From positions 62,001 to 126,000 of the forward strand of contig NZ_JYCN01000022.1 in the NCBI RefSeq assembly GCF_000876655.1: a DNA stretch of 64,000 nucleotides, read 5' to 3'. Under the pieces are notes generated by a model. The model was not told where the DNA came from and searched no databases. It was given only the letters and a program-made list of their open reading frames with translations. This DNA is from Arthrobacter sp. SPG23 (lineage in GTDB: Bacteria; Actinomycetota; Actinomycetes; Actinomycetales; Micrococcaceae). Below are positions 40,308-55,425 of the stretch, in pieces; position 1 is the stretch's first letter, and each line of letters begins with the position of its first letter. The translations under genes and the position numbers were made by a program.

Positions 40308-40335
40308 GCCGCAGCGTCCTTGGCGCCGCTAACCG

Positions 40336-41190
40336 TCAGGATCTTTCCACGAGGCTGCGCTCGAGGTCCACGTCGAACTCCGTGGCCGGCCATTCGAGGT
40401 TGAGGTCTTCCAGGGCCTGGAGCAGTAGCTGCTGCACGGCGATGCGCGCGTACCACTTCTTGTTCGCGGGGATCACGTGCCAGGGCGCCACTTCGGTATG
40501 CGTCTTGTCGAAGGCAGCCTGGTAGGCGGCCATGTAGTCGTCCCAGAAGGCACGTTCCTTCAAGTCGCCGCTACTGTATTTCCAGTGCTTTGAAGGATCG
40601 TCCAGCCGGGCCAGCAGGCGGGATTTCTGTTCGTCCCGGCTGATGTTCAACATCACTTTGACGATTCGGGTGCCGTTGGCCGCAAGCCGTGCTTCAAATT
40701 CGTTGATCGCCGCATAGCGTCGCTCCAGCTCCTCGGGCGAAGCCCAGCTGTGGACGCGGTGGATGAGGACGTCCTCATAATGCGACCGGTCAAAGACGCC
40801 CACCATGCCGGCGGCGGGCACTTCCTTTTCGATCCGCCAGAGGAAGTCGTAGGACTTTTCCTCATCGGTGGGCGCCTTGAACGCCTTGAGCTGCACACCC
40901 TGCGGGTCCATGGCCCCCACAACGTGGGCCACGATGCCGCCCTTTCCCGCCGTATCCATGGCCTGGAGGATGAGCAGGACGCGCTTGGTGCCACCAAATT
41001 TGGCTTCGGCGAACAACTTCTCCTGGAGGGTGGCAAGCTTGCCGTCGACTTCGGCGAGGAGGGCCTGTCCGTCGGATTTGCCGCCCGGGTATCCCGGAGT
41101 GGAATCCGGATCCACGTCGGACAGCCTGAATCCATCACCAGCTGCGAGGGTTCCGGAGGGGTGTTCGTCGAATGTTTCGATTCCTGACAT
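40336..41190 (-). CDS. Polyphosphate kinase 2 family phosphotransferase
   Basis: A 284-aa PPK2-type enzyme that moves phosphate between polyphosphate and nucleotides. Walker A is QAMDTAGKGGIVAHV (about residues 76-90), Walker B FDRSHYEDVLIHRVH (about 133-147), and the lid module has RIVKVMLNISRDEQKSRLLA and DDPSKHWKYSSGDLKERAFW. WHVIPANKKWYARIA follows near the end. The single-domain length suggests a class I or III nucleoside mono/diphosphate-using enzyme; class cannot be fixed by eye. GGAAGG precedes the ATG by 5 nt. Confidence 0.88.
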   Translation of the reverse strand: MSGIETFDEHPSGTLAAGDGFRLSDVDPDSTPGYPGGKSDGQALLAEVDGKLATLQEKLFAEAKFGGTKRVLLILQAMDTAGKGGIVAHVVGAMDPQGVQLKAFKAPTDEEKSYDFLWRIEKEVPAAGMVGVFDRSHYEDVLIHRVHSWASPEELERRYAAINEFEARLAANGTRIVKVMLNISRDEQKSRLLARLDDPSKHWKYSSGDLKERAFWDDYMAAYQAAFDKTHTEVAPWHVIPANKKWYARIAVQQLLLQALEDLNLEWPATEFDVDLERSLVERS

Positions 41191-41295
41191 GTGAAGCCTT
41201 CCGCCGATGTGCCGCCAGTCCGGAGCACCGCTTCCTCGCGGCCGCCTCCGGCTGCCGCCGCCCGGGAGACACCGGGCGGCACTGCTGCCATCAGG

Positions 41296-42516
41296 CTAGT
41301 TCCCCTGGTACCGGCTCAGGAAGTCCCCCATCCGGCCAATTGCCTCTTCAATATCCTTAACGTTGGGCAGCGTGACCATCCGGAAGTGATCCGGGCGTAC
41401 CCAGTTGAAGGCGCGGCCGTGGGAAACGAGGATCTTCTGCTCGCGGAGCAGGTCGAGGACAAACTTTTCGTCGTCCCGGATGTGGAAGACCTCCGGATCC
41501 AGTTTCGGAAACAGGTACAACGCTCCCCTGGCCTGCTGCGTACTGACGCCGGGGATGGCATTGAGCAGGTCGTAAGCCTTGTTCCGCTGTTCCAGCAGGC
41601 GGCCGCCGGGCAGGATCAGATCGTTGATGCTTTGGTATCCGCCCAAAGCCGTCTGGATGGCGTGCTGGGCGGGAACGTTGGCGCACAAGCGCATGTTGGC
41701 AAGGAGGCTGATGCCCTCGAGGTAGTCTGCTGCGTCCTTCTTCGGCCCGGAAATCGCCATCCAGCCGGCCCTGTAGCCGCACACGCGGTACGCCTTGGAC
41801 AACCCGCTGAAGGTCAGGCACAGGACGTCGTCGCCGGTGAGGCCCGCGAGGTTCACGTGGACGGCGTCCTCGTACAGGATCTTCTCGTAGATTTCATCCG
41901 CGAAAAGAACCAGTCCGTGCTTTTCAGCCAGGGCCACGATCCTCTTAAGGGTCTCCTCGGGATACACCGCGCCGGTGGGATTGTTCGGGTTGATCACCAC
42001 GATTCCCTTGGTCCGCGGGGTGATCTTGGATTCGAGGTCCTCCAGGTCCGGCTGCCAGCCGGACTCTTCATCGCAGAGGTAGTGCACGGGCTTTCCGCTT
42101 GCGAGGGCCACGGAGGCAGTCCACAGCGGGTAGTCGGGGGTGGGGATCAGAACCTCGTCGCCGTCGTCGAGCAGCGCCATGAGCGACATGGTGATGAGCT
42201 CGCTGACGCCGTTGCCGAGGTAGATGTCGTCCACGTGGATGTTCTGGATTCCGCGGGTCTGGTAGTACTGCGACACCGCGGTCCGGGCGGAGAATATGCC
42301 CCGGGAATCACTGTAGCCCTGGGCATGCGGCAGGTGGCGGATCATGTCCACCAGGATCGCGTCCGGCGCTTCAAAACCAAACGGGGCCGGGTTTCCGATG
42401 TTCAGTTTGAGGATCCGGTGACCCTCTGCCTCCATCTGCTGGGCGGCCTGAAGAATCGGTCCACGGATGTCGTAGAGGACATTATGAAGCTTGGTGGACT
42501 GCTTGAATTCTGCCAT
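41296..42516 (-). CDS. alaA: Alanine/valine-type aminotransferase (AlaA family)
   Basis: A 406-aa PLP-dependent class I aminotransferase. MAEFKQSTKLHNVLYDIRGP and LKLNIGNPAPFGFEAPDAI are characteristic of AlaA, which makes alanine from pyruvate with glutamate. VINPNNPTGAVYPEE is the PLP pocket asparagine region, and FSGLSKAYRVCGYRAGW contains the PLP lysine. It stands alone; a strong hairpin upstream separates it from the osmoprotectant operon. Confidence 0.85.
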   Translation of the reverse strand: MAEFKQSTKLHNVLYDIRGPILQAAQQMEAEGHRILKLNIGNPAPFGFEAPDAILVDMIRHLPHAQGYSDSRGIFSARTAVSQYYQTRGIQNIHVDDIYLGNGVSELITMSLMALLDDGDEVLIPTPDYPLWTASVALASGKPVHYLCDEESGWQPDLEDLESKITPRTKGIVVINPNNPTGAVYPEETLKRIVALAEKHGLVLFADEIYEKILYEDAVHVNLAGLTGDDVLCLTFSGLSKAYRVCGYRAGWMAISGPKKDAADYLEGISLLANMRLCANVPAQHAIQTALGGYQSINDLILPGGRLLEQRNKAYDLLNAIPGVSTQQARGALYLFPKLDPEVFHIRDDEKFVLDLLREQKILVSHGRAFNWVRPDHFRMVTLPNVKDIEEAIGRMGDFLSRYQGN

Positions 42517-42577
42517 CCATCAAATATGCCATATGGAGGATGTACTTCAGCTGAGACTTGACTCACACGCGAAACGA

Positions 42578-42620
42578 CGACGGCGCCTGCCGGACCAGGC
42601 AGGTCCGGGAGGCGCCGTCG
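42578..42620. terminator. Terminator downstream of the osmoprotectant operon
   Basis: An 11-bp outer stem CGACGGCGCCT / AGGCGCCGTCG enclosing a 7-bp inner stem CCGGACC / GGTCCGG. It lies 22 nt beyond the last operon stop and ahead of alaA. Confidence 0.85.
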
Positions 42621-42642
42621 GGCTCGTTTTACGTGGCTGGGG

Positions 42643-43599
42643 CTACTTGACCAGTCCCTTGTCCTTGAGCCAGGCAGCCGCAGCGTCCTTCGGATTCTGC
42701 TTCTGCGTCCCGCTGACAGCGCGGTTGAGGTTGATCAGGTCCTCCGTGGTGAGGATCTTCGAAACGGAGTTGAGCGCTTCCTTCGCCTTGTCGGTCATCT
42801 TGGCCTTGTTGTACAGGGGCAGGACCTGCTGGGCGATGAAGTTGTTCTTAGGGTCATCCAGGACCACCAGGTCGTTGTCGGCGATGGCCGGCGTGGTGGT
42901 GTAAATGTCCGCGACCTGCACCTGGTCCCCGAGCAGCGCCTTGACGGTGATGGGGCCGCCGCCGTCGCTGAACGGTTCCAGCTTCTTGGGCTCGCAGCCA
43001 TAGTTCTTCTTCAACCCCGGCAGGCCGTAGGCGCGCTCGGCGAAGGTAGCCGGGGCCCCGACGACAAGCTCGCTGCAGACCTTGGCTAGGTCCTCAATCG
43101 ACTTGAGCTGGTACTTCTCCGCCGTAGCCTTGGTCACCACCATGGCGTCCTTGTCCTCGGCTTTGGACGCTTCCAGCACGGCCAGGCCCTCCGGCAGCTT
43201 GGCCGGGAGCGCGTTGTAGATGTCCTCCGCCGAAACCTCGGTGGCTTCCTTGTTCACATGCAGCAGGAGGTTGCCGCTGTAGTCGGGAATGACGTCCACG
43301 GAGCCGTCCTGCACAGCCTTGAAGTACACCTCGCGCGAGCCGATGTTGGGCTTGGTGCTTGCGGTCACGCCGGCGGCATTCAGGGCGCCGGCATAGACCT
43401 CGGCGATGATCTGGCTTTCGGGGAAGTCCGCAGATCCGATCACCAGCGCAGAACCTGATCCGGAACCGCTGGTGGCCGGCGCACTTCCAAGCGGATCCGA
43501 ACCGCCACCGCATGCGGACAGGGCCAGGGCCAGCCCGACTCCGGCGGCCAGGCCGCCGAATGCGCGGCGCCCCAGGATACTAGGGTGGGTTTCCTTCAT
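42643..43599 (-). CDS. Osmoprotectant (glycine betaine/choline) binding lipoprotein, OpuBC/ProX type
   Basis: A 318-aa substrate-binding lipoprotein. The signal peptide has a twin-arginine-like GRRAF start and ends in LSAC (Cys30), then a Gly/Ser linker. VIGSADFPESQIIAEVYAGA is the typical OpuAC/OpuBC opening, and VIPDYSGNLLLH and VADIYTTTPAIADNDLVVLD hold ligand-site residues. It is last in an ATPase-permease-permease-binding protein operon, which points to import of betaine, carnitine or choline-type compounds in osmotic stress. Confidence 0.86.
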   Translation of the reverse strand: MKETHPSILGRRAFGGLAAGVGLALALSACGGGSDPLGSAPATSGSGSGSALVIGSADFPESQIIAEVYAGALNAAGVTASTKPNIGSREVYFKAVQDGSVDVIPDYSGNLLLHVNKEATEVSAEDIYNALPAKLPEGLAVLEASKAEDKDAMVVTKATAEKYQLKSIEDLAKVCSELVVGAPATFAERAYGLPGLKKNYGCEPKKLEPFSDGGGPITVKALLGDQVQVADIYTTTPAIADNDLVVLDDPKNNFIAQQVLPLYNKAKMTDKAKEALNSVSKILTTEDLINLNRAVSGTQKQNPKDAAAAWLKDKGLVK

Positions 43600-44342
43600 G
43601 ATGTACCTCCTTGAACAACAGGCTCCGCGGTCACGGAGTCTGTGAGATCAACCGGTGCCTGCTGGCTCCGGCCTGGCGTGGCAGAGGCTCCCCTGGTCAG
43701 GAACAGCCTCTGGAAAACAGCGAGCAGCAGATCGACGGCGATTGCCAGCGCTGCGATGAGCAGCGAGCCGCCCAGCATCTGCGGAAAATCAGACAGCACC
43801 AGGCCGTCGAACAGATACCGGCCAAGGCCACCGAGGTTGATGTAGGCCACCACTGAAACTGTGGCGATCACTTGGAGCACACCGGTCCTGAACCCGCCGA
43901 ACATCACGGTCAGGGCATTGGGAAATTCCGCCCGGAACAGCACCTGCAGTTCGGTCATGCCCATGGCCCGGGCCGCGTCAACGACGTTCCGGTCCACGCT
44001 GGCAATCCCGGCGTAGGTTCCGGCGAGCAGCGGGGGCACCGTAAGGATCACCAGCGCCCAGATGGGAGGCATCAGTCCGATGCCGGCGAGGAGCACGAAA
44101 AGGGTCAGCAAGCCCAGGGTGGGCAGTGCCCGCAACGCGCCGGCCAAGGCAACCACCGCCACGCGGCCGCGGCCGGTGTGGCCGACATAAAGGCCGATGG
44201 GGACGGCTATGGCGGTGGCAATCAGCATCACGAGACCCGTGTATTGCAGGTGCTCAGCCAGCCGGGCAGGAATGCCCGCGCTTCCGGTCCAGTGCAGCGG
44301 GTCGCCCAGCCAGGCGAACGTGTCCGTAAAGACGTTGCTCAT
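43596..44342 (-). CDS. Osmoprotectant ABC transporter permease, OpuBD type
   Basis: A 248-aa permease with six predicted membrane helices. It starts in a region typical of the family (HLQYTGLVMLIATAIAVPIG), and the coupling loop is RNVVDAARAMGMTELQVLFR (about residue 127). SVVAYINLGGLGRYLFDGL follows. It overlaps both neighbours by 4 nt (ATGA type), so the operon is tightly translated. Confidence 0.86.
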   Translation of the reverse strand: MSNVFTDTFAWLGDPLHWTGSAGIPARLAEHLQYTGLVMLIATAIAVPIGLYVGHTGRGRVAVVALAGALRALPTLGLLTLFVLLAGIGLMPPIWALVILTVPPLLAGTYAGIASVDRNVVDAARAMGMTELQVLFRAEFPNALTVMFGGFRTGVLQVIATVSVVAYINLGGLGRYLFDGLVLSDFPQMLGGSLLIAALAIAVDLLLAVFQRLFLTRGASATPGRSQQAPVDLTDSVTAEPVVQGGTS

Positions 44343-45049
44343 GCCGACGCACCGCCCGCCCGGACGTCGGACAGTCGCTCTGCAGCCGAAGGAAGCGCAG
44401 CCTTGTCAGTCCGTGCAGCGGCCCTGGTCCAGGGCGTCAGCAGCCGTTCAAGGAGCACCAGGACGGCATCCATGAGCAGAGCCAGCACCAGGATGGCGAT
44501 GATTCCGACCACCACCTCGGTGATAAAGCCCCGCTGGAGGCCCGACGTGAACAGCATCCCCAGGTTGCCGATGCCCAGGAGGGCGGCCACGCTCACCAGC
44601 GAGATGTTGCTGACGGACACCACCCGCAGCCCGGCGAAAAGGACCGGAAGGGAAAGCGGGAGGTCGATCTGGAGGAAACGCGCACCGGGCTTGAAGCCCA
44701 TGGCGACTGCGGCCTGGCGGAGATCGTCATCCACGGAGTCGAAGGCATCGAGCGCTGCCCGCACCAGGAGTGCCACGGCGTAGATCGTGAGGGCCACAAT
44801 CACGTTGACCGGGTCCAGGACCCTGGTCCCCAGGATTGACGGGAGAATGATGAACAGGGCGAGGGACGGGATCGTGTAGAGCAGTGACGTGGCCGTGACA
44901 ACCACGGAGCGCAAGGTCCTGTTCCGGCGGGCGAACTGGGCCAGAGGAATCGAGAGCACCAGGCCAAGGACCATCGGAATTATGGCCAGCACCAGGTGCT
45001 GGCCGGCGAGCTCGAACACCCGTGCGCTGTTGGCCAGGAACCATTCCAT
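44339..45049 (-). CDS. Osmoprotectant ABC transporter permease, OpuBB type
   Basis: A 236-aa permease paralogous to its neighbour. GQHLVLAIIPMVLGLVLSIP and SLLYTIPSLALFIILPSILG are characteristic. The coupling loop DDDLRQAAVAMGFKPGARFL is near residue 117. The C-terminal tail is Ala/Arg-rich. It begins at the ATPase stop with a one-base overlap. Confidence 0.86.
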   Translation of the reverse strand: MEWFLANSARVFELAGQHLVLAIIPMVLGLVLSIPLAQFARRNRTLRSVVVTATSLLYTIPSLALFIILPSILGTRVLDPVNVIVALTIYAVALLVRAALDAFDSVDDDLRQAAVAMGFKPGARFLQIDLPLSLPVLFAGLRVVSVSNISLVSVAALLGIGNLGMLFTSGLQRGFITEVVVGIIAILVLALLMDAVLVLLERLLTPWTRAAARTDKAALPSAAERLSDVRAGGASA

Positions 45050-46146
45050 CAGAGGGCACCCTGCCGGACGAGCCGGGCCGATTCGATCACCGCGAGCACC
45101 TCATCCGCCTTAAGGACGCCGGCAAACCTGCCGTCCGCGTCGACGGCCACGCCCAGACCCGAGGGGGAGGACAGCGCCGCGTCAAGGGCACGCCGGAGCG
45201 TGTCCCCTTTCCGGAAGAGCGAGCCACCGGGGATCAGCACCGGACCGGCACCCGGGCTTGCCCAGCCCTGCGGACGGGACTCAGCATCCAGAACCAGCAT
45301 CCAGTCGCCGCCCAGTCCGGCTGCACCGGACTCCAGGTCGCGGTGGCTGACGGTCGGAACGTCATGGAGGGTGACGGCGTCCGAGGGACTGAACGCCAGG
45401 TGACGGAACCCCCGGTCCTTGCCCACGAAGGAAGCCACGAAGTCGTTGGCGGGCGCCCTGAGGATCTCCTCCGGGGTGGCGTACTGGGCCAGTATGCCTC
45501 CTGTGGCGAACACAGCGACCTTGTCGCCCAGCACGGTGGCTTCGTCGATGTCGTGGGTGACGAAAACGATGGTCTTAGCCAGGTCCCGCTGCAGCCGGAG
45601 GAGCTCCTGCTGCAGTTCATCCCGCACCACCGGGTCCACGGCGCTGAACGGTTCGTCCATGAGCAGCACCGGCGGGTCCGCTGCGAGCGCCCGTGCCACC
45701 CCTACCCGCTGCTGCTGGCCGCCGGACAACTGGGAGGGGTACCGCCTGCCCAGCACCGAGGCGAGCCCGACGACGTCGAGAAGTTCTTCGGCGCGCTTGC
45801 GCGCCTCTGCCTTGGGCACCCCGTTAAGCCGCGGGACTGTGGCGATGTTGTCCAGAACCGAGCGGTGCGGCATCAGTCCGGAGGATTGCATCACGTAGCC
45901 CATGGACCGCCTCAGCTGCGCAGCAGGCACCGAGGTAACGTCCTTCCCGTCGACGGTGATGGTGCCGGACGTGGGCTCCACCATGCGGTTGATCATCCGC
46001 AGGGAGGTGGTCTTGCCGCACCCCGAAGGACCAACGAAAGCCGTGATAGAGCCTTTGTCGATGGACATGGTGAGGTTGTCCACGGCCGGCTGCCCGCCCT
46101 GGTACTGCTTGGTGACGCTCTGGAATTCGATCATGGCTTCAGCCAT
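45049..46146 (-). CDS. Osmoprotectant ABC transporter ATPase with one CBS-like domain
   Basis: A 365-aa ATPase of the OpuA/ProV class. Walker A is GPSGCGKTT (about residue 39), signature [15 protein letters not shown], Walker B LLMDEPFSAVD. Residues about 270-365 resemble a CBS motif (DTLRRALDAALSSPSGLGVA, then VDADGRFAGVLKADEVLAVI). Related transporters usually carry a tandem CBS pair that senses ionic strength; the first repeat here is degenerate or missing. Start at 46146 or 46134 (MIEFQS); no ribosome site settles it. Confidence 0.86.
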   Translation of the reverse strand: MAEAMIEFQSVTKQYQGGQPAVDNLTMSIDKGSITAFVGPSGCGKTTSLRMINRMVEPTSGTITVDGKDVTSVPAAQLRRSMGYVMQSSGLMPHRSVLDNIATVPRLNGVPKAEARKRAEELLDVVGLASVLGRRYPSQLSGGQQQRVGVARALAADPPVLLMDEPFSAVDPVVRDELQQELLRLQRDLAKTIVFVTHDIDEATVLGDKVAVFATGGILAQYATPEEILRAPANDFVASFVGKDRGFRHLAFSPSDAVTLHDVPTVSHRDLESGAAGLGGDWMLVLDAESRPQGWASPGAGPVLIPGGSLFRKGDTLRRALDAALSSPSGLGVAVDADGRFAGVLKADEVLAVIESARLVRQGAL

Positions 46147-46380
46147 TTCCGGGCTTACCTAACTGTTGGCGGCAACATCGGACGGTCAAGCCGGAAGATC
46201 ATAAGCATGCTGATTTTCGGCTGTAAAGCAGGTAATACACAGCGTAACCAGCGGCCCGGACAAAGTCAGCGGTGCCGCGGCTACCGTAAGCATTCGGTGA
46301 CCTGCGCCTTTTGGATGGGTGGCGGTGCCGGACTGCGCCATTCATGCAGCCGGGCACCGCCGCCGTATCTCCTTCGCGCG

Positions 46381-47580
46381 TCAACTGCGCTTCCGTTTGC
46401 CCCGCTTCCCATCGCCGCCGGCGCGGTCGCCGGCCTTTTCATGTCCGTAGCGCTCGGCCGCCCGCTGGCTCTTGCCCGCAACCACCACCTTCTGGTGCCA
46501 TTCCCGCTGGTACGCCCGCCGGGCTGCAGCGTCATGCCGGCGGTTGAGCGCCGCAAGCTCACGCTGGAGCTTGAGGTAGCTCTCCCACCTGCGGATCTCC
46601 AGCGTCCCGTCGGCGAGCGCCGCCTGGACAGCACAGCCGGGCTCCCGATCGTGCGCGCAGTCGGCGAAGCGGCACCCGCCGAACAGCTCCTCGAGATCCC
46701 CGAACATCTCCCCCATGCCGTCCTCGGCGTCGAAAAGCCCGAAGCCGCGCACGCCGGGGGTGTCCATGAGCACCGCACCCCCAGGCAGCGGGACAAGCTC
46801 CCGGGATGTGGTGGTGTGCCTGCCTTTGCCGTCGCCGGACCGGACCGGCCCAACGTCCTGGGCGTGATGCCCGGCCAGGGCGTTGATCAGCGTGGACTTT
46901 CCGGCGCCGGAGGGGCCCAGCAGGACCAGGGTCCCCCCGGCCGGCACGTGTCCGAGCAGTTCGTCGAGGCCGTCGCCCTGTTCCGCCGAGGTGGTGACCA
47001 CGGCAACGCCGGCAGCCTGCAGGATGACCTTCCCGACGACGTCGTCCGCGATGTCGGCAAGGTCCGCTTTGGTGATGATCACCAGCGGGGTGGCTCCCGA
47101 ATCCCACGCTGCCACCAGCGTCCGCTCCAGCCGGTTGTGGGTGAGCGGCCGGTCCACCGGGACTACCACCCCCACAACATCGACGTTGGCGCCCAGGACC
47201 TGTGCCTCGGAGGATGCCTCGAAGGCGCGCTTGCGGCTCAGCGCCGACTGGCGGGGCAGCACAGCGATGACGGCGGGCTCTCCCGCCGAATTAGCGCCGA
47301 GCCACACCCAGTCGCCGGTGGCGGGAATTTCGCCGTGGACCGGGTAGGGCAGGTGCCGGAGCTCCGCGGCCCCGGCAACCAGGACCCTGTTCCGGTCCAC
47401 GCGGACCACCCGCCCGGGGCTCTCCCCGCCGGGGGCGGGATGGGCGTCGAAGAGTGCTGCCGTCCGCGCTGTGAAGCCATAGGGCACGGGACCGGCCATC
47501 GGTGAAACTGACGGGGTCAAAACTGAACGGGTAGTTGTTGAATCTTTTTCGGTCAGCACGTGACCTGGAGTTGTTTTCAA
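46381..47580 (-). CDS. rsgA: Ribosome small-subunit-dependent GTPase RsgA
   Basis: A 399-aa circularly permuted GTPase that acts in late 30S maturation. The OB-like domain (about residues 55-125) is followed by the out-of-order GTPase motifs: G4 IITKADLAD (about 170), then G1 GPSGAGKSTLINALAG (about 225) and G3 DTPGVRGFGL (about 272). The zinc site is C-RFAD-C-AHDREPG-C. The C-terminal 60 residues are strongly basic (ending GGDGKRGKRKRS), suited to rRNA binding. A TTG start with AGAGG 8 nt upstream is likely; MAGPVPYGF at residue 28 is an alternative. Confidence 0.9.
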   Translation of the reverse strand: MKTTPGHVLTEKDSTTTRSVLTPSVSPMAGPVPYGFTARTAALFDAHPAPGGESPGRVVRVDRNRVLVAGAAELRHLPYPVHGEIPATGDWVWLGANSAGEPAVIAVLPRQSALSRKRAFEASSEAQVLGANVDVVGVVVPVDRPLTHNRLERTLVAAWDSGATPLVIITKADLADIADDVVGKVILQAAGVAVVTTSAEQGDGLDELLGHVPAGGTLVLLGPSGAGKSTLINALAGHHAQDVGPVRSGDGKGRHTTTSRELVPLPGGAVLMDTPGVRGFGLFDAEDGMGEMFGDLEELFGGCRFADCAHDREPGCAVQAALADGTLEIRRWESYLKLQRELAALNRRHDAAARRAYQREWHQKVVVAGKSQRAAERYGHEKAGDRAGGDGKRGKRKRS

Positions 47581-47941
47581 TGAAGAACCTCTGGTGAGGC
47601 CCCGTAGGCACGGACTCCGCTGTTTGATTCAGCCGGTAGGGGTCAGGACGTGCGGTTGGCCGGGGCAGGAATAATGACGTGGCTGGCGCGCGTGGCGCGC
47701 AGGAATATTGCAGTCATCGTCTCCACCTCCCCTGTCCGCGATCATGACTTTTTGACGTCAGTCCATGTGCTTCGCCGGGTGCATTCGCCGGCGGCTTTTC
47801 AAGGGTAAACCGTCCAGCGCGGCTTGGCTAGGGGTCACGCCGTGCCGGGCAGCGGGCCAGGGCGGCTGCCCGGAAGGCCGACCATGCGCCTGAGCTTGCT
47901 GACCCCTCCCGGCGACTGGTCCTTCGGCCTAGAGTGGGTCT
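47581..47941. promoter_or_regulatory. rsgA / pirin divergent intergenic region
   Basis: 361 bp containing a 24-codon ORF on the minus strand (47643-47717) and, further upstream, a TGACGTCA palindrome inside a larger imperfect CATGACT...AGTCcATG inverted repeat (about 47743-47772). At the other end is the pirin -10 box TAGAGT (47930-47935). No other gene seen. Confidence 0.5.
47643..47717 (-). CDS. Short upstream ORF, possible leader peptide of rsgA
   Basis: A 24-aa frame reading MTAIFLRATRASHVIIPAPA then NRTS, with a near-ideal ribosome site (GGAGGTGG, 7 nt before the ATG). It ends 62 nt before the rsgA start. Codons 7-12 (CGCGCC ACG CGCGCC) can fold as GCGCGC-CAC-GCGCGC, so translation of the peptide could affect local RNA structure. 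It may be a leader peptide or a free microprotein. The ribosome site is the main evidence; conservation has not been tested. Confidence 0.5.
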   Translation of the reverse strand: MTAIFLRATRASHVIIPAPANRTS

Positions 47942-49033
47942 GTGACGAACCTCGAAGTAAGCCCCAAGGAAGAACTGTGCCCGCCGGGACAGCCGGGAGG
48001 ATATGCCGGAAACGGTCCGTGCCTGCAGTTGTGGCCGGCGCGGGAAGTTCCGCTCGGCGGAGTCCGGGCCATGAACGTCTTCCGGACCCTTCCGCAACGG
48101 GGCCTGCCCACCGTGGGCGCCTGGTGCTTCCTGGACAGTTTCGGCCCGGACCGGGTGGCCATGTCCGTCCTGCCGCACCCGCACACCGGCTTGCAGACCG
48201 TAACGTGGCCCCTGGCCGGCACCATCAGGCACCGCGACAGCGTGGGCAGCGATGTGATTGTGCGTCCGGGAGAGCTCAACATCATGACCGCTGGCAACGG
48301 CGTCTCGCACTCCGAGTTCGCCGTGCCGCCGCACCGCCCGTCCCCCGGCGAAACGACCAATGCCGGTCCTTCGGGCGCCGGGACCGTCGCGGCGGGGGCT
48401 TCCGATGCCAGGACGGAACTGCCGCTGCAGCGCGGCCTCCAGTTGTGGGTCGCCCTTCCGGACGGCGAGCGCCACCGGGCACCGGCCTTCGAGCAGCACC
48501 GCAACCTCCCGGAAGTAACCGGAGACGGTTTCACGGCAACGGTGATGGTGGGAAGCTTCGCCGGAGCGACCTCTCCGGCCACGATGTACTCCCCGATCGT
48601 TGGTGCGGACATCACCTGCACCGGATCAGTCGTCCTGCCGCTTGACCCCGTCTTTGAGCATGCGGTGCTGGTGCTCGACGGCGGCATCAGCCTCGACGGG
48701 CAGGACGTGCCGCCGGGTCCGCTGGGTTACCTCGGGACCGGCCGGCGCCTGCTGGAAGTCGACGCGCTGCCCGGAACACGGTTCATTTTGCTGGGCGGGG
48801 AACCGTTCCAGGAAGAGCTGCTGATGTGGTGGAACTTTGTGGGCAGGACCCACGATGAAGTTGCCCAGGCCCGCCAGGACTGGGAGGACCAGGCGGACCT
48901 CCCGGACCCGAAGGCTGCGGACTCGCGGTTCGGGCTGGTCCGCGGGCACGGACCGGAGGCGGGGGCCGAGGCCGGGCGCATTCCCGCGCCTCCCCTGCCG
49001 GGCGTCCGGCTCCGCCCCCGCACACGCTCCTAA
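47942..49033 (+). CDS. Pirin family protein
   Basis: A 363-aa bicupin. The N-terminal cupin holds the metal-binding His motif SVLPHPHTGLQTVTWPLAG (about residues 75-93) and GELNIMTAGNGVSHSEF (about 112). The C-terminal cupin includes SPATMYSPIVGADI and ILLGGEPFQEELLMWWNFVG. Bacterial pirins are quercetinase-like dioxygenases or bind metabolic enzymes; which applies is unknown. The GTG start follows TAGAGT by 6 nt, so it is probably leaderless. An acidic/Gly-rich tail ends the protein. Confidence 0.85.
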   Translation: MTNLEVSPKEELCPPGQPGGYAGNGPCLQLWPAREVPLGGVRAMNVFRTLPQRGLPTVGAWCFLDSFGPDRVAMSVLPHPHTGLQTVTWPLAGTIRHRDSVGSDVIVRPGELNIMTAGNGVSHSEFAVPPHRPSPGETTNAGPSGAGTVAAGASDARTELPLQRGLQLWVALPDGERHRAPAFEQHRNLPEVTGDGFTATVMVGSFAGATSPATMYSPIVGADITCTGSVVLPLDPVFEHAVLVLDGGISLDGQDVPPGPLGYLGTGRRLLEVDALPGTRFILLGGEPFQEELLMWWNFVGRTHDEVAQARQDWEDQADLPDPKAADSRFGLVRGHGPEAGAEAGRIPAPPLPGVRLRPRTRS

Positions 49034-49074
49034 GGTGTGTTGCCGGCCGACGGATGCCGCGCGGAGTCCGGAGG

Positions 49075-50055
49075 CTACCCCTGTTCGGCCACCAGTTGCA
49101 GGACCCCGAAGACGGGGTCCTGCTGCAGGACCCGAACGTCCGTGACGCCTTCGGCGGCGAGGGTCCGCTTGAAGGAGTCCTGCAGGCGGACCACGTTCAT
49201 CCCGAGGCCGCTGCCCAGGATCACCGGGCCCTGGATGCCCAGTTTCCGCAATGCCTGGGCGGCAAGTCCGGCGAGATCCCGGCCTGCCTGCTCAACAAGG
49301 GCCTGGCTGGCGGCGTGCCCCGCGTCCGCCGCCTCCACAACGAGCCGCGCCTGCTGGGCCCAGTAGCGCCGGCCGGTCTCCGGTGAGTGGAAAAGCGCTA
49401 TCAGCTTGTTGGGGTCGTCGATCTTGCAGGACCGCAGCAGGGCGGTGGTGAGTTCGTCTGGCTCCAGGCCCTGGTTCATGCGGCGGAGGCTGTGCCGGAC
49501 AGCTTCGCGGCCCAGCCAGTAACCGCTGCCTTCGTCCCCGAGCAGGTAGCCCCAGCCGCCCGCCCGTGCCTCCTCGCCCCGGTCATTCTTGCCCCAGGCA
49601 GCCGAGCCGGTGCCGGCAATGACGGCCACCCCGGTGCTTGCCCCGCCGGCCGCCAGTAGCAGCCGGGAGTCATGGACCACCGTGATTTTGGCGCCGGGCA
49701 CATGGGGGGCGATCAGCGCTGAAAGCGCGGCAGCGTCCTCGTCCGTGTCGATACCCCCGGCCCCGGCGTAGACCTGGGAAACCGCCCCTCCGCCGATCTT
49801 TGCGAACAGCTCGGCCAGGTGCAGTGCCGCCTCCTCGCGGCTGACGTTCTGCACGTTTGAGCTGCCAACGCTTTCATCGGCCACGGCCCTGCCGCTTTCA
49901 AAGCGGACACCGCGGGTCTTCGTGCCGCCGATATCCAGGCCGATCACCGCACCGGGCAGCCCCCCGGACGGCGAGGCCGGCGCGGCCGGAGCGTCGGGGA
50001 CGCCGCCGGTGGAAGGAACAGAATCCGTTGCCGGCAGGTTGTCAGAATTAGTCAC
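49075..50055 (-). CDS. BadF/BadG-type ATPase, N-acetylglucosamine kinase-like
   Basis: A 326-aa sugar-kinase-fold protein. After a 35-residue Pro/Ala/Ser-rich N-terminus comes the phosphate-1 motif GLDIGGTKTRGVRF. YAGAGGIDTDED and VIAGTGSAAWGKNDRG mark phosphate-2 regions, and GGWGYLLGDEGSGYWLG is the GlcNAc-kinase-like signature. It probably phosphorylates an amino sugar from cell-wall recycling. The GTG start lies 6 nt behind TAGTCT (50062-50067 on the plus strand as AGACTA). It is divergent from the nitronate monooxygenase-like gene. Confidence 0.8.
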   Translation of the reverse strand: MTNSDNLPATDSVPSTGGVPDAPAAPASPSGGLPGAVIGLDIGGTKTRGVRFESGRAVADESVGSSNVQNVSREEAALHLAELFAKIGGGAVSQVYAGAGGIDTDEDAAALSALIAPHVPGAKITVVHDSRLLLAAGGASTGVAVIAGTGSAAWGKNDRGEEARAGGWGYLLGDEGSGYWLGREAVRHSLRRMNQGLEPDELTTALLRSCKIDDPNKLIALFHSPETGRRYWAQQARLVVEAADAGHAASQALVEQAGRDLAGLAAQALRKLGIQGPVILGSGLGMNVVRLQDSFKRTLAAEGVTDVRVLQQDPVFGVLQLVAEQG

Positions 50056-50061
50056 GTGAAC

Positions 50062-50067
50062 AGACTA
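50062..50067 (-). promoter_or_regulatory. Leaderless -10 box of the GlcNAc-kinase-like gene
   Basis: TAGTCT on the minus strand, 6 nt before the GTG start. It lies just upstream of the divergent nitronate monooxygenase-like start. Confidence 0.5.
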
Positions 50068-50091
50068 CTGAGTGACCACAAGGAGCAGGGA

Positions 50092-51141
50092 ATGACGGAC
50101 GCCATTTTCGGTACACGAATCATCGCCGCACCCATGGCAGGGGGAACATCGACACCCCGGTTTGTGCAGGCCGTGCACCGCGCCGGCGGGTTGGGCTTCC
50201 TGGCCGCGGGCTATAAGACAGTCGCAGCCATGCAGTCCGACATCCGCGAGGTCCGCGCCGCCGGTGCACGCTTCGGCCTGAATCTCTTCGTCCCCGACCG
50301 GGCGCAGCTCAATCCGCCGCCCGCTGCCAGGGATCAGTTGGAGAGCTACCGGCGGAGCCTCGAGCCGGACGCCCGTCGCTACGGGGTGGCCCTTCCCGGG
50401 CTGCGGCTCGACGACGATGACGCCTGGCAGGACAAGATGGACGCGCTGCTGGCGGATCCGGTGGAGTTTGTCAGCTTCACCTTCGGACTGCCGGAGCAAG
50501 ACGAAGTGCGCGCGCTCAAGGGCGCCGGTTCCATGGTCATTGCCACCGTCACCAGTACGGCGGAAGCCGCGCTTGCGGCGGAACGCGGAGCGGACGTCCT
50601 GGCGGTCCAGCACAGCAGTGCGGGCGGCCACAGTGCAGCCTTCCTGCCCCCGGGAAGCACAACCCGCTCCCCTGGCCCCGCGACGACGGCGGAACTGCTC
50701 GCCGCGGTGCGCAGCACAGTCGGTGTGCCCTTGGTTGCGGCCGGCGGGATCATGGATTCCGCAGGCCTTGACTCGGTGCTGGCCGCGGGCGCAACGGCAG
50801 CCCAGCTGGGTACGGCGTTGCTTCGCAGCGACGAAAGCGGCTCGCGCCAGCTCCACAAGGACGCCCTCGCCAGCCAGGCCTTTACGGAGACCCGGATGAC
50901 CCGTGCGTTCACCGGCCGGCAGGCACGGGCCCTGGCTAATTCCTTCGTCCGGGATCATGAAGACGCGCCGGAGGGGTACCCTGCGATCCACCACCTCACC
51001 GCTCCGATCCGGGCGGCAGCCGCCGCTGCGGGAGACCCGGAGAGGCTGAATCTGTGGGCGGGAACCGGGTGGCGGCAGGCGGAAACCGGTCCGGTCGCGG
51101 ACATCATGTCCGGGATGCTCGGGGGGTCGGAGCTTTCCTGA
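50092..51141 (+). CDS. Nitronate monooxygenase-like FMN enzyme
   Basis: A 349-aa TIM-barrel flavoprotein of the 2-nitropropane dioxygenase/NMO family, which oxidises alkyl nitronates. IIAAPMAGGTSTPRFVQAVH is the N-terminal FMN region, VQHSSAGGHSAAF carries the GGH motif with the probable catalytic His, and PLVAAGGIMDSAGLDSVLAA binds phosphate. TRAFTGRQARALANSF is a family C-terminal motif. The ATG at 50092 has AAGGAG 6 nt upstream; the 12-codon extension to GTG 50056 is less likely. Confidence 0.85.
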   Translation: MTDAIFGTRIIAAPMAGGTSTPRFVQAVHRAGGLGFLAAGYKTVAAMQSDIREVRAAGARFGLNLFVPDRAQLNPPPAARDQLESYRRSLEPDARRYGVALPGLRLDDDDAWQDKMDALLADPVEFVSFTFGLPEQDEVRALKGAGSMVIATVTSTAEAALAAERGADVLAVQHSSAGGHSAAFLPPGSTTRSPGPATTAELLAAVRSTVGVPLVAAGGIMDSAGLDSVLAAGATAAQLGTALLRSDESGSRQLHKDALASQAFTETRMTRAFTGRQARALANSFVRDHEDAPEGYPAIHHLTAPIRAAAAAAGDPERLNLWAGTGWRQAETGPVADIMSGMLGGSELS

Positions 51142-51209
51142 CCGCCCGCGCAACACCAGGTGCCGCAATGTCAGTGTCCCGCGCAACGCCAGGTGCCGGC
51201 GCGGGCGGT
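51141..51209. repeat. Two direct repeats inside a long-stem hairpin
   Basis: A 19-bp sequence CGCGCAACxCCAGGTGCCG occurs at 51147-51165 and 51180-51198 (18 of 19 identical, 33-bp period). The flanks ACCGCCCGCGC (51141-51151) and GCGCGGGCGGT (51199-51209) pair perfectly over 11 bp. It sits between convergent genes and may act as terminator. Confidence 0.7.
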
Positions 51210-51213
51210 GGCC

Positions 51214-52197
51214 TCAGCCTTCAGAACGTGCCCGGATCAGTCCCGCCAGCAGCCCGGGCCCCTCGGTCAGGACCATTTCCCGGAACAGCCTGACCTGATC
51301 CGGCTCGGCCTCGTGGCCGCTGCGGCGTTCGCGCCATGCCAGGCCGATTTCACGGAACGCCAGTCCGGATGCCAGCGGCACCTCCACCCAGCCAAGGTTT
51401 CCGGTGTGCTCACTCACTGTCCGGCCCGGAGCCAGGCCGCCGGGCGGGAGGATGCTGACACCGAGCCCGGCGGATACAAGCCCACGGACGGTGTGGGAAT
51501 CCTGGCTTTCGAAGGCGATGCGGGGGCGGAACCCGGCTTCGCGGAACAGCGCGTCCGTGAGCGACCGCATGCCGTATCCGTGCCCCATCGCCACGAACGG
51601 ATCCTGCCTGATGTCAGCGAGCCGGGCGCTCTTCCGGCGGGCCAGCGGGTGTTGATGGTGCACCACCAGCCGCAGGGGTTCCCGGTAGAGGGCGGCTGAG
51701 CCGATGCTGCGTCCCGCAGGGGCAACGGGCGCCGTCAGGACGAGATCAGCGGTCCCCGCCGCGAGTTCCGCCAGGCAGCCGTCCCGGGCGCCCTGGCTCA
51801 GGTCGAAGGCAGTCTGCGGGTGGCGGTGGTGGAACGCGTTGATCAGCAGCGGCAGCGTGGCCTCGCCAAAGGTGTGCTGGAATGCCACGGCAATCCTGCC
51901 CCGCACCACCTCGGATTCGTGCCGCACCAGGTCCAGCCCGGTCCGGAACTCGTTGAGCGCCGCATCGATGTACGGCAGCAGAGCCTTGGCCGCCGGAGTC
52001 AGCCGGATTCCCCTGCCATCGCGGATCAGCAGTTCGGTGCCCACGACGGCACTGGCCCGGGCGAGCGCCCGGCTGACCGTGGACTGCGGTATGCCGAGTA
52101 TTTCCGCCGTTTCCGTCACGTGCTGCGTCCGTCCCAGTTCGGACAGGACGGGGAGCAACGGAAGCAACTGCGCCAGCTGTTTGTGCTCGATATCCAT
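51214..52197 (-). CDS. LysR-family transcriptional regulator
   Basis: A 327-aa LysR regulator. The helix-turn-helix (about residues 15-65) reads VLSELGRTQHVTETAEILGI, then PQSTVSRALARASAVVGTEL. The effector domain follows from about 95 (RGRIAVAFQHTFGEATLPLL). AGGAAGG lies 6 nt before the ATG. It is divergent from an MFS exporter with a 90-bp gap containing a T-N11-A inverted repeat, the normal arrangement for a LysR protein controlling its neighbour. Confidence 0.88.
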   Translation of the reverse strand: MDIEHKQLAQLLPLLPVLSELGRTQHVTETAEILGIPQSTVSRALARASAVVGTELLIRDGRGIRLTPAAKALLPYIDAALNEFRTGLDLVRHESEVVRGRIAVAFQHTFGEATLPLLINAFHHRHPQTAFDLSQGARDGCLAELAAGTADLVLTAPVAPAGRSIGSAALYREPLRLVVHHQHPLARRKSARLADIRQDPFVAMGHGYGMRSLTDALFREAGFRPRIAFESQDSHTVRGLVSAGLGVSILPPGGLAPGRTVSEHTGNLGWVEVPLASGLAFREIGLAWRERRSGHEAEPDQVRLFREMVLTEGPGLLAGLIRARSEG

Positions 52198-52246
52198 CGG
52201 GCCTTCCTAAAATTGATCCGTTATCAGCATTGGTCCTATGTAAATC

Positions 52247-52261
52247 ATGCATTGGAAGCAT
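52247..52261. promoter_or_regulatory. LysR-type T-N11-A site
   Basis: ATGC-ATTGGAA-GCAT is a symmetric T-N11-A motif in the LysR/MFS gap, centred about 34 nt upstream of the MFS start. This overlaps the expected -35 region of its leaderless promoter (TACGCT at 52276-52281, 6 nt before the ATG). Confidence 0.5.
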
Positions 52262-52287
52262 GCGATCCGGCGATCTACGCTGGCTTC

Positions 52288-54123
52288 ATGCACATGCTGT
52301 CAAAGCGGGACATGCCTCACCCCGGGCCGTGGGCGGGCCATCCGAAGGGCTCTGCTGCCTACGGACGGCTGCTTGCGGGCCTGGCGTTCGCCGGGGTGGC
52401 GACGTTCGCGCAGCTCTACTCGACGCAGGCCGTGCTGCCCATCATGGCCACGGACCTGCGGATCACGGCGGCCGAAGCGGCGCTCACCATCTCGCTGGCG
52501 ACCGTGGGGCTCGCGGCCACTGTCATCCCGTGGTCCTTCCTGGCGGACAGGATCGGCCGGGTCCGGGCCATGACCCTGGGCATTTCTGCCGCGACCGTCC
52601 TGGGCCTGCTGGTTCCCCTTGCCGCCACCTTTCCCATGCTCCTGGGGCTCCGCTTGCTCGAAGGCATGGCACTGGGCGGGATACCGGCGATCGCCATTGC
52701 CTACCTGAACGAGGAAGTCCACAAGGCGCACGCCGCCATGGCAGCCGGGAGCTACGTTGCGGGGACCACGCTGGGCGGCCTGTCGGGACGGCTGGTTGCC
52801 GGCCCCGTCGCTGAGCTCTGGGGATGGCGGGCGGCCACCTTGGCCGTCTCCGTCCTGGCAGCTGTCGCTGCCGTCCTGTTCCTTGTCCTGGTGCCCAAGG
52901 CCCGCGGCTTCACGCCTGCACGCGCCAGCGGATTCCGCGGGGCCGCGAGGACCCTTGCCGGCCATCTGCGCAATCCCCGCCTGCTGGCCCTCTATGTCCA
53001 GGCCTTCCTGCTCATGGGCGGCTTCGTGGCCGTCTACAACTACCTCGGCTTCCGGCTTTCCGGTGATCCGTTCGGGCTGCCGGCCACCGTGATCAGCCTC
53101 ATCTTCGTGGCATACCTGTCCGGCACGGTGACCTCCAGGCTGGCTGGAGCCCTCACGCTGAAGTTCGGGCGGCGGACCATCCTGCTGGCCGGAATCGTGC
53201 TGATGATCCTTGGCCTGGCGCTGACACTGACGCAGCTGCTGGTCCTGATCCTGGCCGGTCTTTTGGTTTTCACCGGAGGATTCTTTGCGGCGCACAGCAT
53301 CGGGGCGGGCTGGACCGGAGGGATCGCCACCACCGGCAGGGCGCAGGCTGCCTCGCTGTACAACCTGGCCTACTACCTTGGCTCCAGTGCAATCGGGTGG
53401 GCAGGCGGCCTGGTTTTCCAGTCATTCGGTTGGACTGCGCTCGCCCTGACGGTCATCGGCCTGGGATGCACGACGGCGGTGATCACCGCCGTCGTGCATC
53501 CCGCGGCTGACGCGGGGAAGCCGGCCCCGGGGCAACCGGCGTCCGGGCAGCCCGCCCCCGGGCCAGCCGGCCCTCAAACAGCCGGCCTCCAAACAGCCGG
53601 CCCCTTGGCAAGGGGATCCGGCCGGCTAGCGCGTTCCCTCGACTGCCTGCAGGAGGTCCGCCACAATGTCCGCAGCGTCCTCCAGCCCCACGGACAAGCG
53701 GAGCAGGCTGGCAAGCGGCCTGGCCTCGGCGGCAACGGGCCGGTGGGTCAGCCCGGCCGGGTGCTGGATAAGGGTATCGATGCCGCCCAGGGACACGGCG
53801 TGGGTGATCATCCGGACCGCCGCCGGCACCCGCTCGGCATGCTCGGCGCTGGCCAGTTCAAACGCCAGCAGCGACCCGGGTCCGGACATCTGGGTCCCCA
53901 CCAGCCCCAGCGGGTCGCACTCCGGGAGTCCCGGGTAATGGACCGCCTTCACCAGCTCGTGTCCGGCCAGGGCTGCTGCAACCTTGTGGGCGGTTGCCTG
54001 CTGCGCCCGGACCCGCACCGGAAGCGTGGCGAGCCCGCGGTGCAACAGGTAGGCCGGCCAGGGCGTCAGGATTCCGCCGGTCACGGCCCGGACCTGGCGG
54101 AGCCTGGTGGTCCACTCCGTTGA
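52288..54123 (+). CDS. MFS transporter (YnfM-like) with run-on C-terminus
   Basis: A 611-codon frame. Residues about 25-405 form a 12-helix MFS exporter: ATFAQLYSTQAVLPIMATDL, then the A-motif FLADRIGRVRAMTLG, and a second-half motif GALTLKFGRRTIL. The YnfM subfamily exports small molecules. After VVHPAADAGK the sequence becomes a Pro/Gly/Gln repeat region (GQPASGQPAPGPAGPQ) and then a 165-residue hydrophilic tail lying antisense over the 3' part of the trans-sulfuration gene. No stop occurs where the family normally ends. The tail composition is that of an antisense shadow. The ATG follows TACGCT by 6 nt. Confidence 0.75.
   Translation: MHMLSKRDMPHPGPWAGHPKGSAAYGRLLAGLAFAGVATFAQLYSTQAVLPIMATDLRITAAEAALTISLATVGLAATVIPWSFLADRIGRVRAMTLGISAATVLGLLVPLAATFPMLLGLRLLEGMALGGIPAIAIAYLNEEVHKAHAAMAAGSYVAGTTLGGLSGRLVAGPVAELWGWRAATLAVSVLAAVAAVLFLVLVPKARGFTPARASGFRGAARTLAGHLRNPRLLALYVQAFLLMGGFVAVYNYLGFRLSGDPFGLPATVISLIFVAYLSGTVTSRLAGALTLKFGRRTILLAGIVLMILGLALTLTQLLVLILAGLLVFTGGFFAAHSIGAGWTGGIATTGRAQAASLYNLAYYLGSSAIGWAGGLVFQSFGWTALALTVIGLGCTTAVITAVVHPAADAGKPAPGQPASGQPAPGPAGPQTAGLQTAGPLARGSGRLARSLDCLQEVRHNVRSVLQPHGQAEQAGKRPGLGGNGPVGQPGRVLDKGIDAAQGHGVGDHPDRRRHPLGMLGAGQFKRQQRPGSGHLGPHQPQRVALRESRVMDRLHQLVSGQGCCNLVGGCLLRPDPHRKRGEPAVQQVGRPGRQDSAGHGPDLAEPGGPLR
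53595..53627. terminator. Hairpin at the MFS / trans-sulfuration 3' junction
   Basis: AGCCGG-CCCCTT, loop GGC, AAGGGG-at-CCGGCCGGCT. It could end transcripts from both sides, but it lies inside the MFS open frame and touches the trans-sulfuration stop codon. Confidence 0.55.
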
Positions 54124-54789
54124 CGCCGCCACCACACCGCCCATGGCATCCCCGTGTCCGCCGAGGAATTTGGTGGCGCTGTGCAGCACCAGTGTGGCGC
54201 CGTGGGCCAGGGGCTGTTGCAGCACCGGGCTGGCAAAGGTGTTGTCCACCAGTACCGGCACGCCGTCAGCGTCACGCGAGAGCTGAGCGATGTCCACCAG
54301 TTCCAGGCTGGGGTTGGCGGGCGTCTCCACCATCACCAATCCCGTGTCCGGTCGCAGGGCCGCACGGACTCCGTCCGCCGTCGTGAACGCCACCTCGGTG
54401 CCCAGGACGCCCGAGGCCAGGACGTGGTCGCTGCCGCCGTAGAGCGGCCGCACCGCCACCACGTGCTTCCTGCCGGCAGCCACAGTCGCGAGGAGGACTG
54501 CCGACAGCGCGGCCATCCCGGTGGCAAAGGCCACCGCCTCGGGAGCGCCTTCGAGCACGGCCACGCCCTCCTCGAAGCGGGCCACGGTGGGATTCCACAG
54601 GCGCTGGTAGACGGTGCTCTGGCCTTCCAACGGCATCCCGCCGCTGGCCATTTGTTCATAGGCCCGGCCGCCGTCGTGGACGGACGGAAGCGGCGCAGTG
54701 GTGGAGAGGTCAATCGGCACGGCGTGCACGCCTTGGTCGGTGAGGCCGGTACGGCCTGCATGGACAGCCAGTGAATCGGGAGAAAGCAC
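53626..54789 (-). CDS. Cystathionine gamma-synthase/lyase family PLP enzyme
   Basis: A 387-aa trans-sulfuration-family enzyme. YQRLWNPTVARFEEGVAVLE is a family opening, AVRPLYGGSDHVLASGVLG forms the PLP pocket, ETPANPSLELVDI and LVDNTFASPVLQQPL are characteristic, and LHSATKFLGGHGDAMGG contains the PLP lysine (about residue 205). The exact reaction (cystathionine synthesis, lysis or methionine gamma-lysis) cannot be separated by eye. The GTG at 54789 has AAAGGAG 5 nt upstream. The divergent Lrp-family gene suggests amino-acid-responsive control. Confidence 0.85.
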   Translation of the reverse strand: MLSPDSLAVHAGRTGLTDQGVHAVPIDLSTTAPLPSVHDGGRAYEQMASGGMPLEGQSTVYQRLWNPTVARFEEGVAVLEGAPEAVAFATGMAALSAVLLATVAAGRKHVVAVRPLYGGSDHVLASGVLGTEVAFTTADGVRAALRPDTGLVMVETPANPSLELVDIAQLSRDADGVPVLVDNTFASPVLQQPLAHGATLVLHSATKFLGGHGDAMGGVVAASTEWTTRLRQVRAVTGGILTPWPAYLLHRGLATLPVRVRAQQATAHKVAAALAGHELVKAVHYPGLPECDPLGLVGTQMSGPGSLLAFELASAEHAERVPAAVRMITHAVSLGGIDTLIQHPAGLTHRPVAAEARPLASLLRLSVGLEDAADIVADLLQAVEGTR

Positions 54790-54800
54790 GGGACTCCTTT

Positions 54801-54843
54801 GAATTATTCGCCATTGAATCCGGCAAGTCTCTGGCAATAATTC
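54801..54843. promoter_or_regulatory. Candidate Lrp operator between the trans-sulfuration gene and Lrp
   Basis: GAATTATT (54801-54808) and its exact reverse complement AATAATTC (54836-54843) are 35 bp apart centre to centre, extended by GCC/GGC on the inner sides. They lie upstream of the trans-sulfuration start codon. Confidence 0.45.
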
Positions 54844-54921
54844 GGAGTTTCATAGGGCATACGAATGGAACTGTCGGAAAATGAAGTTTATGATGAACTC
54901 ATAACCCTTGGAGGAGGCCCT

Positions 54922-55425
54922 GTGAGCAGCGGTGCGAAGAATATTCGGCTCGGCGCGGGAACCGAACCGCTGGACGCCATCGACGAACGGCTGCTGGCCG
55001 CCCTCGTGGATGACGCCCGCATCTCAAACAAACAGCTGGCCGAGCTCGTGGGCATCGCCCCGTCCACCGCGCTCATGCGTACCCGGGCACTGTCCGAACG
55101 CGGCATCATCCAGGGCTTCGAAGCGAAACTGAGCCTGTCCGCCATCGGCCGGTCCGTCCAGGCGCTCATCGCCGTCCGGCTCCGCGCCCACGACCGCGAA
55201 CAAATCGACCGCTTCACGTCCCGGGTACCCCGGCTCCCGGCCGTGCTCTCCACCTTCCACACCTCCGGCTCGGTGGACTACCTCCTGCACATTGCCGTGG
55301 CCACCACCGAAGACCTCCGCGACTGGGTCCTGGACAACCTGGCGACCGATCCCGTGGTGGGCCACACCGAAACCACACTGGTGTTCGAACACATCCAGGG
55401 CAACCACGGGCCGCTTCCGGACTGA
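54922..55425 (+). CDS. Lrp/AsnC-family regulator
   Basis: A 167-aa regulator. The helix-turn-helix (about residues 20-65) reads DERLLAALVDDARISNKQLA, then ELVGIAPSTALMRTRALSER. The RAM ligand domain follows (SVQALIAVRLRAHDREQIDR, then DYLLHIAVATTEDLRDWVLD). The GTG at 54922 is chosen because GGAGGAGG ends 4 nt upstream; an in-frame ATG at 54865 would put that site inside the gene. It is divergent from the trans-sulfuration gene and probably controls it. Confidence 0.87.
   Translation: MSSGAKNIRLGAGTEPLDAIDERLLAALVDDARISNKQLAELVGIAPSTALMRTRALSERGIIQGFEAKLSLSAIGRSVQALIAVRLRAHDREQIDRFTSRVPRLPAVLSTFHTSGSVDYLLHIAVATTEDLRDWVLDNLATDPVVGHTETTLVFEHIQGNHGPLPD

Follow-up and report, generated by a model that had tools for sequence, protein, structure and literature searches.

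A short leader ORF within a predicted structured RNA element precedes the RsgA-family GTPase gene rsgA2 in Arthrobacter and other Actinomycetota

Analysis of a 64,000-nucleotide stretch of the Arthrobacter sp. SPG23 genome (hereafter the window) and of related loci revealed a short leader ORF (uORF) in front of rsgA2, a gene coding for a paralog of the RsgA/YjeQ family of GTPases. This uORF would be the translated portion of a structured leader RNA that acts in cis on rsgA2 and in which the traffic of ribosomes, and not the peptide, sets the expression of the gene, a reading to which we assign a probability of roughly 0.6 on the basis of sequence comparisons. The features of the leader region are collected in Table 1.

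Table 1. Position of the uORF, of its predicted structural parts and of the associated features in the window.
Feature	Position	Strand	Remarks
Leader ORF (uORF)	47643..47717	minus	ATG at 47717 to TGA at 47643; 24 codons; peptide MTAIFLRATRASHVIIPAPANRTS
uORF ribosome-binding site (SD1), GGGGAGGTGG	47723..47732	minus	almost invariant in alignment A1
Apical hairpin GCGCGC-CAC-GCGCGC (GCGCGCCACGCGCGC)	47686..47700	minus	within the uORF
3' arm in the uORF, GTCATTATTCCTGCCCCGG	47660..47678	minus	predicted partner of SD1 and AUG
Entire predicted structured element	47652..47739	minus	covariance model R1 match, 92.1 bits, the window sequence itself being among the 34 used to build R1
Second conserved motif, CGGGGCCTCACCAGAGG	47588..47604	minus	GGGG tract and small hairpin holding the rsgA2 SD (GAGG)
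rsgA2, RsgA/YjeQ-family GTPase paralog	46381..47580	minus	TTG start; TIGR00157, PF03193
Promoter-like TAGCCA-N17-TACCCT	47802..47830	minus	5' of the leader; read by eye

The first-pass annotation had proposed a 24-codon ORF with an ideal ribosome site before an rsgA gene. The ORF is real, far above chance expectation, and the sequence that precedes it is a near-perfect SD, almost invariant among relatives; the uORF has the window's single instance of GGAGGTG with an ATG 6 or 7 nt further on. The gap between the site and the ATG, given at first as 7 nt, is slightly shorter (6 nt past GGAGGTG, 5 nt past GGAGGTGG), while the 62 nt counted from the stop codon of the uORF to the gene are exact when measured to the TTG codon at 47580, and the GCGCGC hairpin ascribed to the coding part does lie inside the ORF. 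The upstream palindrome TGACGTCA is also present, at 47753-47760 within an inverted repeat of the 5' leader, but it was set aside as a part of the conserved element, since it was not found in the 110 nt 5' of the ORF in any of nine close relatives (L003-L011) and is thus lineage-specific. Finally, the downstream gene does belong to the RsgA family (a protein of 399 residues that scores 148 bits against TIGR00157, for a cutoff of 100, and also matches PF03193), but it is a paralog rather than the housekeeping copy: another RsgA, 37% identical to this one, is encoded on contig C14 of the same genome, hence the name rsgA2.

Of the 78 loci of the Arthrobacter group that were compared (the window's own and L062-L138; the distant GTPases L139 and L140 and the loci L032-L061 were left out), 77 have a short ORF ahead of rsgA2, with an ATG located 6-7 nt past GGAGGTG or, in two loci, GGGGGTG; as the ATG and the SD belonged to the search pattern, they must not be counted a second time in this proportion. 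The sole locus without the element is L138, in which the match to rsgA2 begins at query residue 50. In the 543,721 bases of the 77 related loci, 74 copies of GGAGGTG spaced 6 or 7 nt from an ATG were found at the target; off target, this combination was never found with an ORF of 15-40 amino acids and twice with a longer or unclosed one, ORFs below 15 amino acids being left out of this count. The uORF measures 24-30 codons across the 77 loci (26 codons in 44 of them) and is closed by TAG (43 loci), TGA (24) or TAA (10). Gap blocks inside it are of 3, 6, 9, 12 or 15 nt, with blocks of 1 and 5 nt in the distant L131 only, all of them counted as alignment rows and not as independent events. In L004, a close relative outside the 78 loci, the tail of the uORF is frame-shifted from about codon 16, for a total of 29 codons, and the frame is therefore kept with exceptions. 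Frame +2 of the same region is likewise free of stop codons in 58 of the 77 rows, which makes an open frame alone weak evidence. At codons 1-3, nearly all 77 loci carry ATGANTG, with an NTG triplet in the second frame after the AUG; an overlapping second-frame start at this NTG is a hypothetical possibility.

Conservation in relatives had been expected for the peptide as well as for its ribosome site, and the two differ in this respect: the site is almost invariant, but in 33 disjoint pairs of loci the pN and pS of the uORF are both 0.108 (pN/pS 1.00), with 90, 96 and 86 differences at the three codon positions. In 30 of the same pairs, rsgA2 has a pN of 0.057 and a pS of 0.358 (pN/pS 0.16), with 714, 552 and 3177 differences. 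Synonymous sites thus change about three times more slowly in the uORF than in rsgA2, and amino acids change faster. Codon 2 of the uORF encodes Thr in 42 loci, Ile in 25 and Asn in 10 of the 77, its first base being conserved in 100% and its third in 99% of them while the middle base is free. Arginine is found at codon 10 in 59 of the 77 loci, and the recurrent residues fall where the GCGC hairpin lies. These comparisons indicate that evolution keeps the ribosome site, the rough size and the RNA fold of the uORF rather than its peptide.

The conserved RNA helix predicted for the element involves the leader ORF itself, SD1 and the AUG pairing with the 3' half of the same ORF. When 33 loci chosen from all groups were folded as single sequences and compared by eye, the SD1/AUG region lay in a helix with this 3' half in most cases, with a small GC hairpin inside it at about codons 7-10. 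For 34 Arthrobacter-type elements (alignment A2), the 18-pair structure leaves 94.1% of the cells paired, against 40.2-56.4% in slid controls. RNAalifold predicted only 2 pairs from the plain alignment of 77 rows, which led to the use of clade alignments together with a covariance model. In the covariance-model alignment of 76 elements across groups (A4, which omits L131 and, with E > 0.02, L081, L090 and L100), 86.3% of the cells are paired and 94 cells carry two-sided changes, compared with a shuffled mean of 33 (0 of 500 shuffles), slid controls being lower on every measure; the alignment having been fitted to the structure, these pairing and covariation counts are favoured.

Comparisons with recoded and exchanged sequences bear on the same helix. 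In 76 of 77 loci, SD1 and the AUG pair more with the 3' half than they do on average in 40 synonymous recodings; the total folding energy is no better than that of synonymous recodings of the uORF. As a partner of the SD1 arm, the locus's own tail did better than its shuffled versions in 73 of 77 loci (z below -1.65 in 31), and in swaps between SD1 arms and the tails of other loci the own tail was hardly better (mean rank 0.436). At E 1, the covariance model leaves L131, L138, L147 and L149 unmatched, and outside the element it matched weakly once, in L123 (E 0.026), besides the opposite strand of the element itself. A search of Rfam with positions 40000-56000 of the window returned no match up to E 1. 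Among six relatives, no Rfam family reached threshold for the element; a tRNA was found elsewhere in L148, and three matches among the six fell below their cutoffs. The sub-cutoff match to mir-6827 (27 bits against 80) covers the element of L148.

The element is linked to rsgA2. Of 150 genomes of the genus, 91 have a single match to the covariance model (E 0.01). Thirty-seven of the 150 (G000-G036) were also searched for rsgA2, which 30 of them have; the element occurs in 21 of the 30, each time just upstream of rsgA2 by coordinates, so that its location was cross-checked for 21 of the 91 matches. It occurs in none of the seven genomes without rsgA2 or with fragments only (G009), and the nine other rsgA2-bearing genomes gave no match to the element at E 0.01. 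Relatives of rsgA2 are found in 50 of 248 genomes of the order (E 1e-40) and in 98 of 296 genomes of the phylum (E 1e-50), the own genus being included in both counts.

In a Streptomyces-like genus of the same class, sampled through 30 loci fetched from 59 genomes with a match, a pattern search found an ORF led by GGAGGT before rsgA2 in 28 loci, and a like ORF starting with TTG was seen by eye in the remaining two. In 23 of these 28 loci, the SD arm is complementary to the ORF tail over a Watson-Crick block of 6 or more, typically GGAGGT/ACCTCC. The genus also has a GGGC-GCU-GCCC hairpin, at roughly the codons where the Arthrobacter group has its own. The start codon of rsgA2 is TTG in the 27 loci of the 28 in which it could be assigned. 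The peptide of this genus has a pN of 0.137 and a pS of 0.107 (pN/pS 1.28; 13 pairs, from an alignment that omits L260 and the loci with no assigned start). In other families, a short SD-led ORF was found within 330 nt in 13 of 36 loci, compared with 42 of 2,585 random windows from the same loci, these windows not being matched for intergenic position and the gene starts being guessed. Inspected by eye, several of these short ORFs again pair their SD with their own tail, and the leader peptides of different families look unrelated. In the one locus used as a canonical-rsgA control (L173), no SD-led start was found within 400 nt upstream. A similar predicted layout, built with different peptides, is found before rsgA2 in the Streptomyces-like genus and in some other families.

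The start codon of rsgA2 is weak, the script-assigned starts of 72 loci being TTG in 44, GTG in 27 and ATG in one (TTG or GTG in 71 of 72). Directly 5' of the gene, a GGGG-CC...-RAGG motif is conserved, and the SD of the gene can fold into a small hairpin. Folding simulations did not reveal a consistent switch at this second ribosome site. Wherever on the uORF the simulated ribosome was placed (start, middle or stop), the mean pairing of the rsgA2 SD shifted by at most 0.07, and an erm-type switch, in which a uORF ribosome sitting on the first arm would free the rsgA2 SD, received no support from the simulations and was rejected. The cost of opening the rsgA2 initiation region drops clearly in the Paenarthrobacter group only, with the ribosome at the uORF stop (-6.2 kcal/mol, 12 of 15). 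A ribosome at the uORF start changes the mean cost by +0.9 to 1.4 kcal/mol in Arthrobacter-group loci and by -0.7 in Streptomyces-like loci. A second helix, between the uORF tail and the GGGG region, would form a duplex stronger than the swapped-pair mean in 49 of 71 loci and, compared with shuffles, has a z below -1.65 in 44 of 71. One Pseudarthrobacter group has this duplex in a very strong form, while in group A4 it is no better than swaps; in the Paenarthrobacter group, where it is no better than swaps either, it is unfairly measured because the spacer is short. Among Streptomyces-like loci, a Watson-Crick block of 6 or more in this helix is limited to 9 of 28. Both the simulations and the second-helix test omit L094, L111, L124 and L133 (no assigned start) and L080 (misplaced), and the latter also omits L131, which falls outside its groups.

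These results bear on a variant of the best explanation, translational coupling, according to which ribosomes terminating on the uORF would open the rsgA2 hairpin or reinitiate at the TTG. Such coupling would suit the weak start codon and the lower opening cost that the Paenarthrobacter group shows when a ribosome occupies the uORF stop; outside this group, however, the spacer is long and variable and the mean opening cost shows no drop, and we regard the variant as unlikely.

Part of the same evidence would also suit a structured leader bound by a protein, in which the hairpin would be an RNA operator, for RsgA2 or a ribosomal protein for example, and the ORF incidental. Constraint on nucleotides and not on amino acids, compensatory changes in the helix, the frame-shifted tail in L004 and the second open frame in 58 of 77 rows all speak in its favour. 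An operator would, however, have no need of a strong SD, and this possibility, which we consider quite unlikely, is at odds with the presence of an ATG behind a near-perfect SD in 77 of 78 loci, with the use of three different stop codons at a nearly constant length, with the frame-keeping nature of almost all indels of the uORF and with the similar ORF layouts that other families build from different sequences.

Leader ORFs ahead of resistance genes often act as nascent-peptide sensors, and the recurring residues of the uORF, such as the arginine at codon 10, could be read as the mark of a sensor of the erm or cysteine-leader type, on which a drug or a metabolite would stall the ribosome through the peptide. 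Such a sensor is nevertheless very improbable here: the residues that recur are those of the GCGC hairpin, the peptides of different families look unrelated by eye, and a conserved (stalling) peptide was rejected on account of the equality of pN and pS (ratio 1.00) and, in the second genus, by a pN that exceeds pS (ratio 1.28). A functional microprotein encoded beside rsgA2, for which the good ribosome site and the roughly constant length might speak, is the least credible of all, amino-acid constraint being absent in both genera and the window's peptide having no match in Pfam.

The promoter-like sequence upstream of the leader was missed by a scan for the sigma-70 consensus, and a pattern search recovered its CYAGCCA...TANNNT form in 45 of 77 loci. 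In the window and in many of the loci L062-L137, the candidate promoter would have CCTAGCCA as -35 and TANNNT as -10. A TAGCCA/TGGCTA inverted repeat, with its parts about two helical turns apart, was seen by eye in several relatives, and may correspond to a predicted operator overlapping the promoter. By a loose pattern, promoter-like sites of an AT-rich TTGAC/GTGGC type are present at 21 of 28 Streptomyces-like rsgA2 loci and at only 1 of 77 Arthrobacter-group loci. No terminator-like site was detected when intrinsic terminators were sought between 47480 and 48000 of the window, in a scan that terminators devoid of a T-run would escape. The divergent neighbour on the plus strand (47942-49033) has no match in NCBIfam; from its appearance, we presume it to be pirin-like. 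On the 3' side of rsgA2 and on the same strand, ABC transporter genes (43596-46146) code for a ProV-like ATPase (best NCBIfam match, under cutoff) and, as judged by eye, for two permease-like proteins.

Control by leader ORFs is already a known kind of regulation, and the special trait here is the peptide-independent SD paired within its own ORF. In Actinomycetota, a figure legend of PMC7157823 states that wblC is subject to uORF-mediated transcription attenuation, and the whiB7/wblC system, as presented there, likewise has a short ORF before an actinobacterial translation-stress gene. The rsgA2 leader differs in that no terminator-like site was found in the region scanned and in that the gene encodes an RsgA GTPase instead of a regulator; the intrinsic terminator that a transcription attenuator of the whiB7/ARE-ABCF type would have between uORF and gene was not found by the same scan. 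Passages of PMC12121999 on the toiL uORF of topAI-yjhQ in E. coli describe several kinds of translation stress sensed by one uORF, and propose that a hairpin across the uORF and the next ribosome site represses the gene. SD1 of the rsgA2 leader would in contrast be paired inside its own ORF, and no sequence relation is claimed. In the Streptomyces ARE-ABCF uORF leaders tiaA and are5sc, ribosome sites overlap alternative hairpins, according to passages of PMC12421871. As portrayed in these passages, they resemble the rsgA2 leader as actinobacterial uORFs with ribosome sites in helices, but differ by their predicted terminator/anti-terminator pairs, their response to named drugs and the ABCF ATPase gene that they precede.

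The S. coelicolor pair of RsgA paralogs SCO6149/SCO5211 is given among the WblC-activated genes in PMC7157823, in passages that make no mention of a leader ORF. From the order of the names there, we take SCO6149 to be the activated member, and we infer orthology of the S. coelicolor paralog with the window's rsgA2. No description of leader-ORF control of rsgA was found among the open-access papers that the searches listed, subscription papers being outside their scope. In the passages retrieved from open-access texts that combine RsgA with "leader peptide", the latter term occurs only in a reference on ErmBL, and where RsgA is combined with a uORF, in passages of PMC7157823, the uORF is that of wblC.

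Under the preferred reading, the uORF as a translated leader set by ribosome traffic, the conserved ORF is very probably translated in the cell and probably senses how well ribosomes work. The SD and start codon, the helix and the linkage to the gene are kept, the frame is nearly always kept and the peptide is free, which argues that the act of translating is itself the signal. The first-pass suggestion that a translated leader could sense translation itself fits this pattern of conservation, from which the regulation would be deduced, but pN = pS speaks against the importance then given to the peptide. Ribosomes loading and moving on the uORF would open or close the helices, and rsgA2 output would follow the translation state, whichever peptide is made; the switch may lie in the alternative helix that joins the uORF tail to the GGGG tract ahead of the rsgA2 SD. 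As the simulations revealed no consistent switch, the direction of regulation is taken from analogy with the wblC, ARE-ABCF and toiL leaders, and the likeliest sense would then be a rise in RsgA2 upon impaired translation of the uORF. It is possible, though doubtful, that the element represents an ancient sensor of ribosome availability in Actinomycetota, in which pairing between a near-perfect SD and an anti-SD located in the coding tail of the ORF itself would provide feedback independent of any ligand or specific peptide. Free or poorly initiating 30S subunits would then be read out directly and would set the level of a 30S-maturation GTPase.

In the Arthrobacter group, the Streptomyces-like genus and parts of other actinobacterial families, an RsgA-family GTPase of 30S assembly would thereby be tied to a translated leader whose apparent input is the activity of ribosomes and not a peptide. 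The element offers a concrete and mutable handle on the matching of ribosome-assembly factors to translation capacity, and gives a hint as to why many actinobacteria retain a second RsgA.
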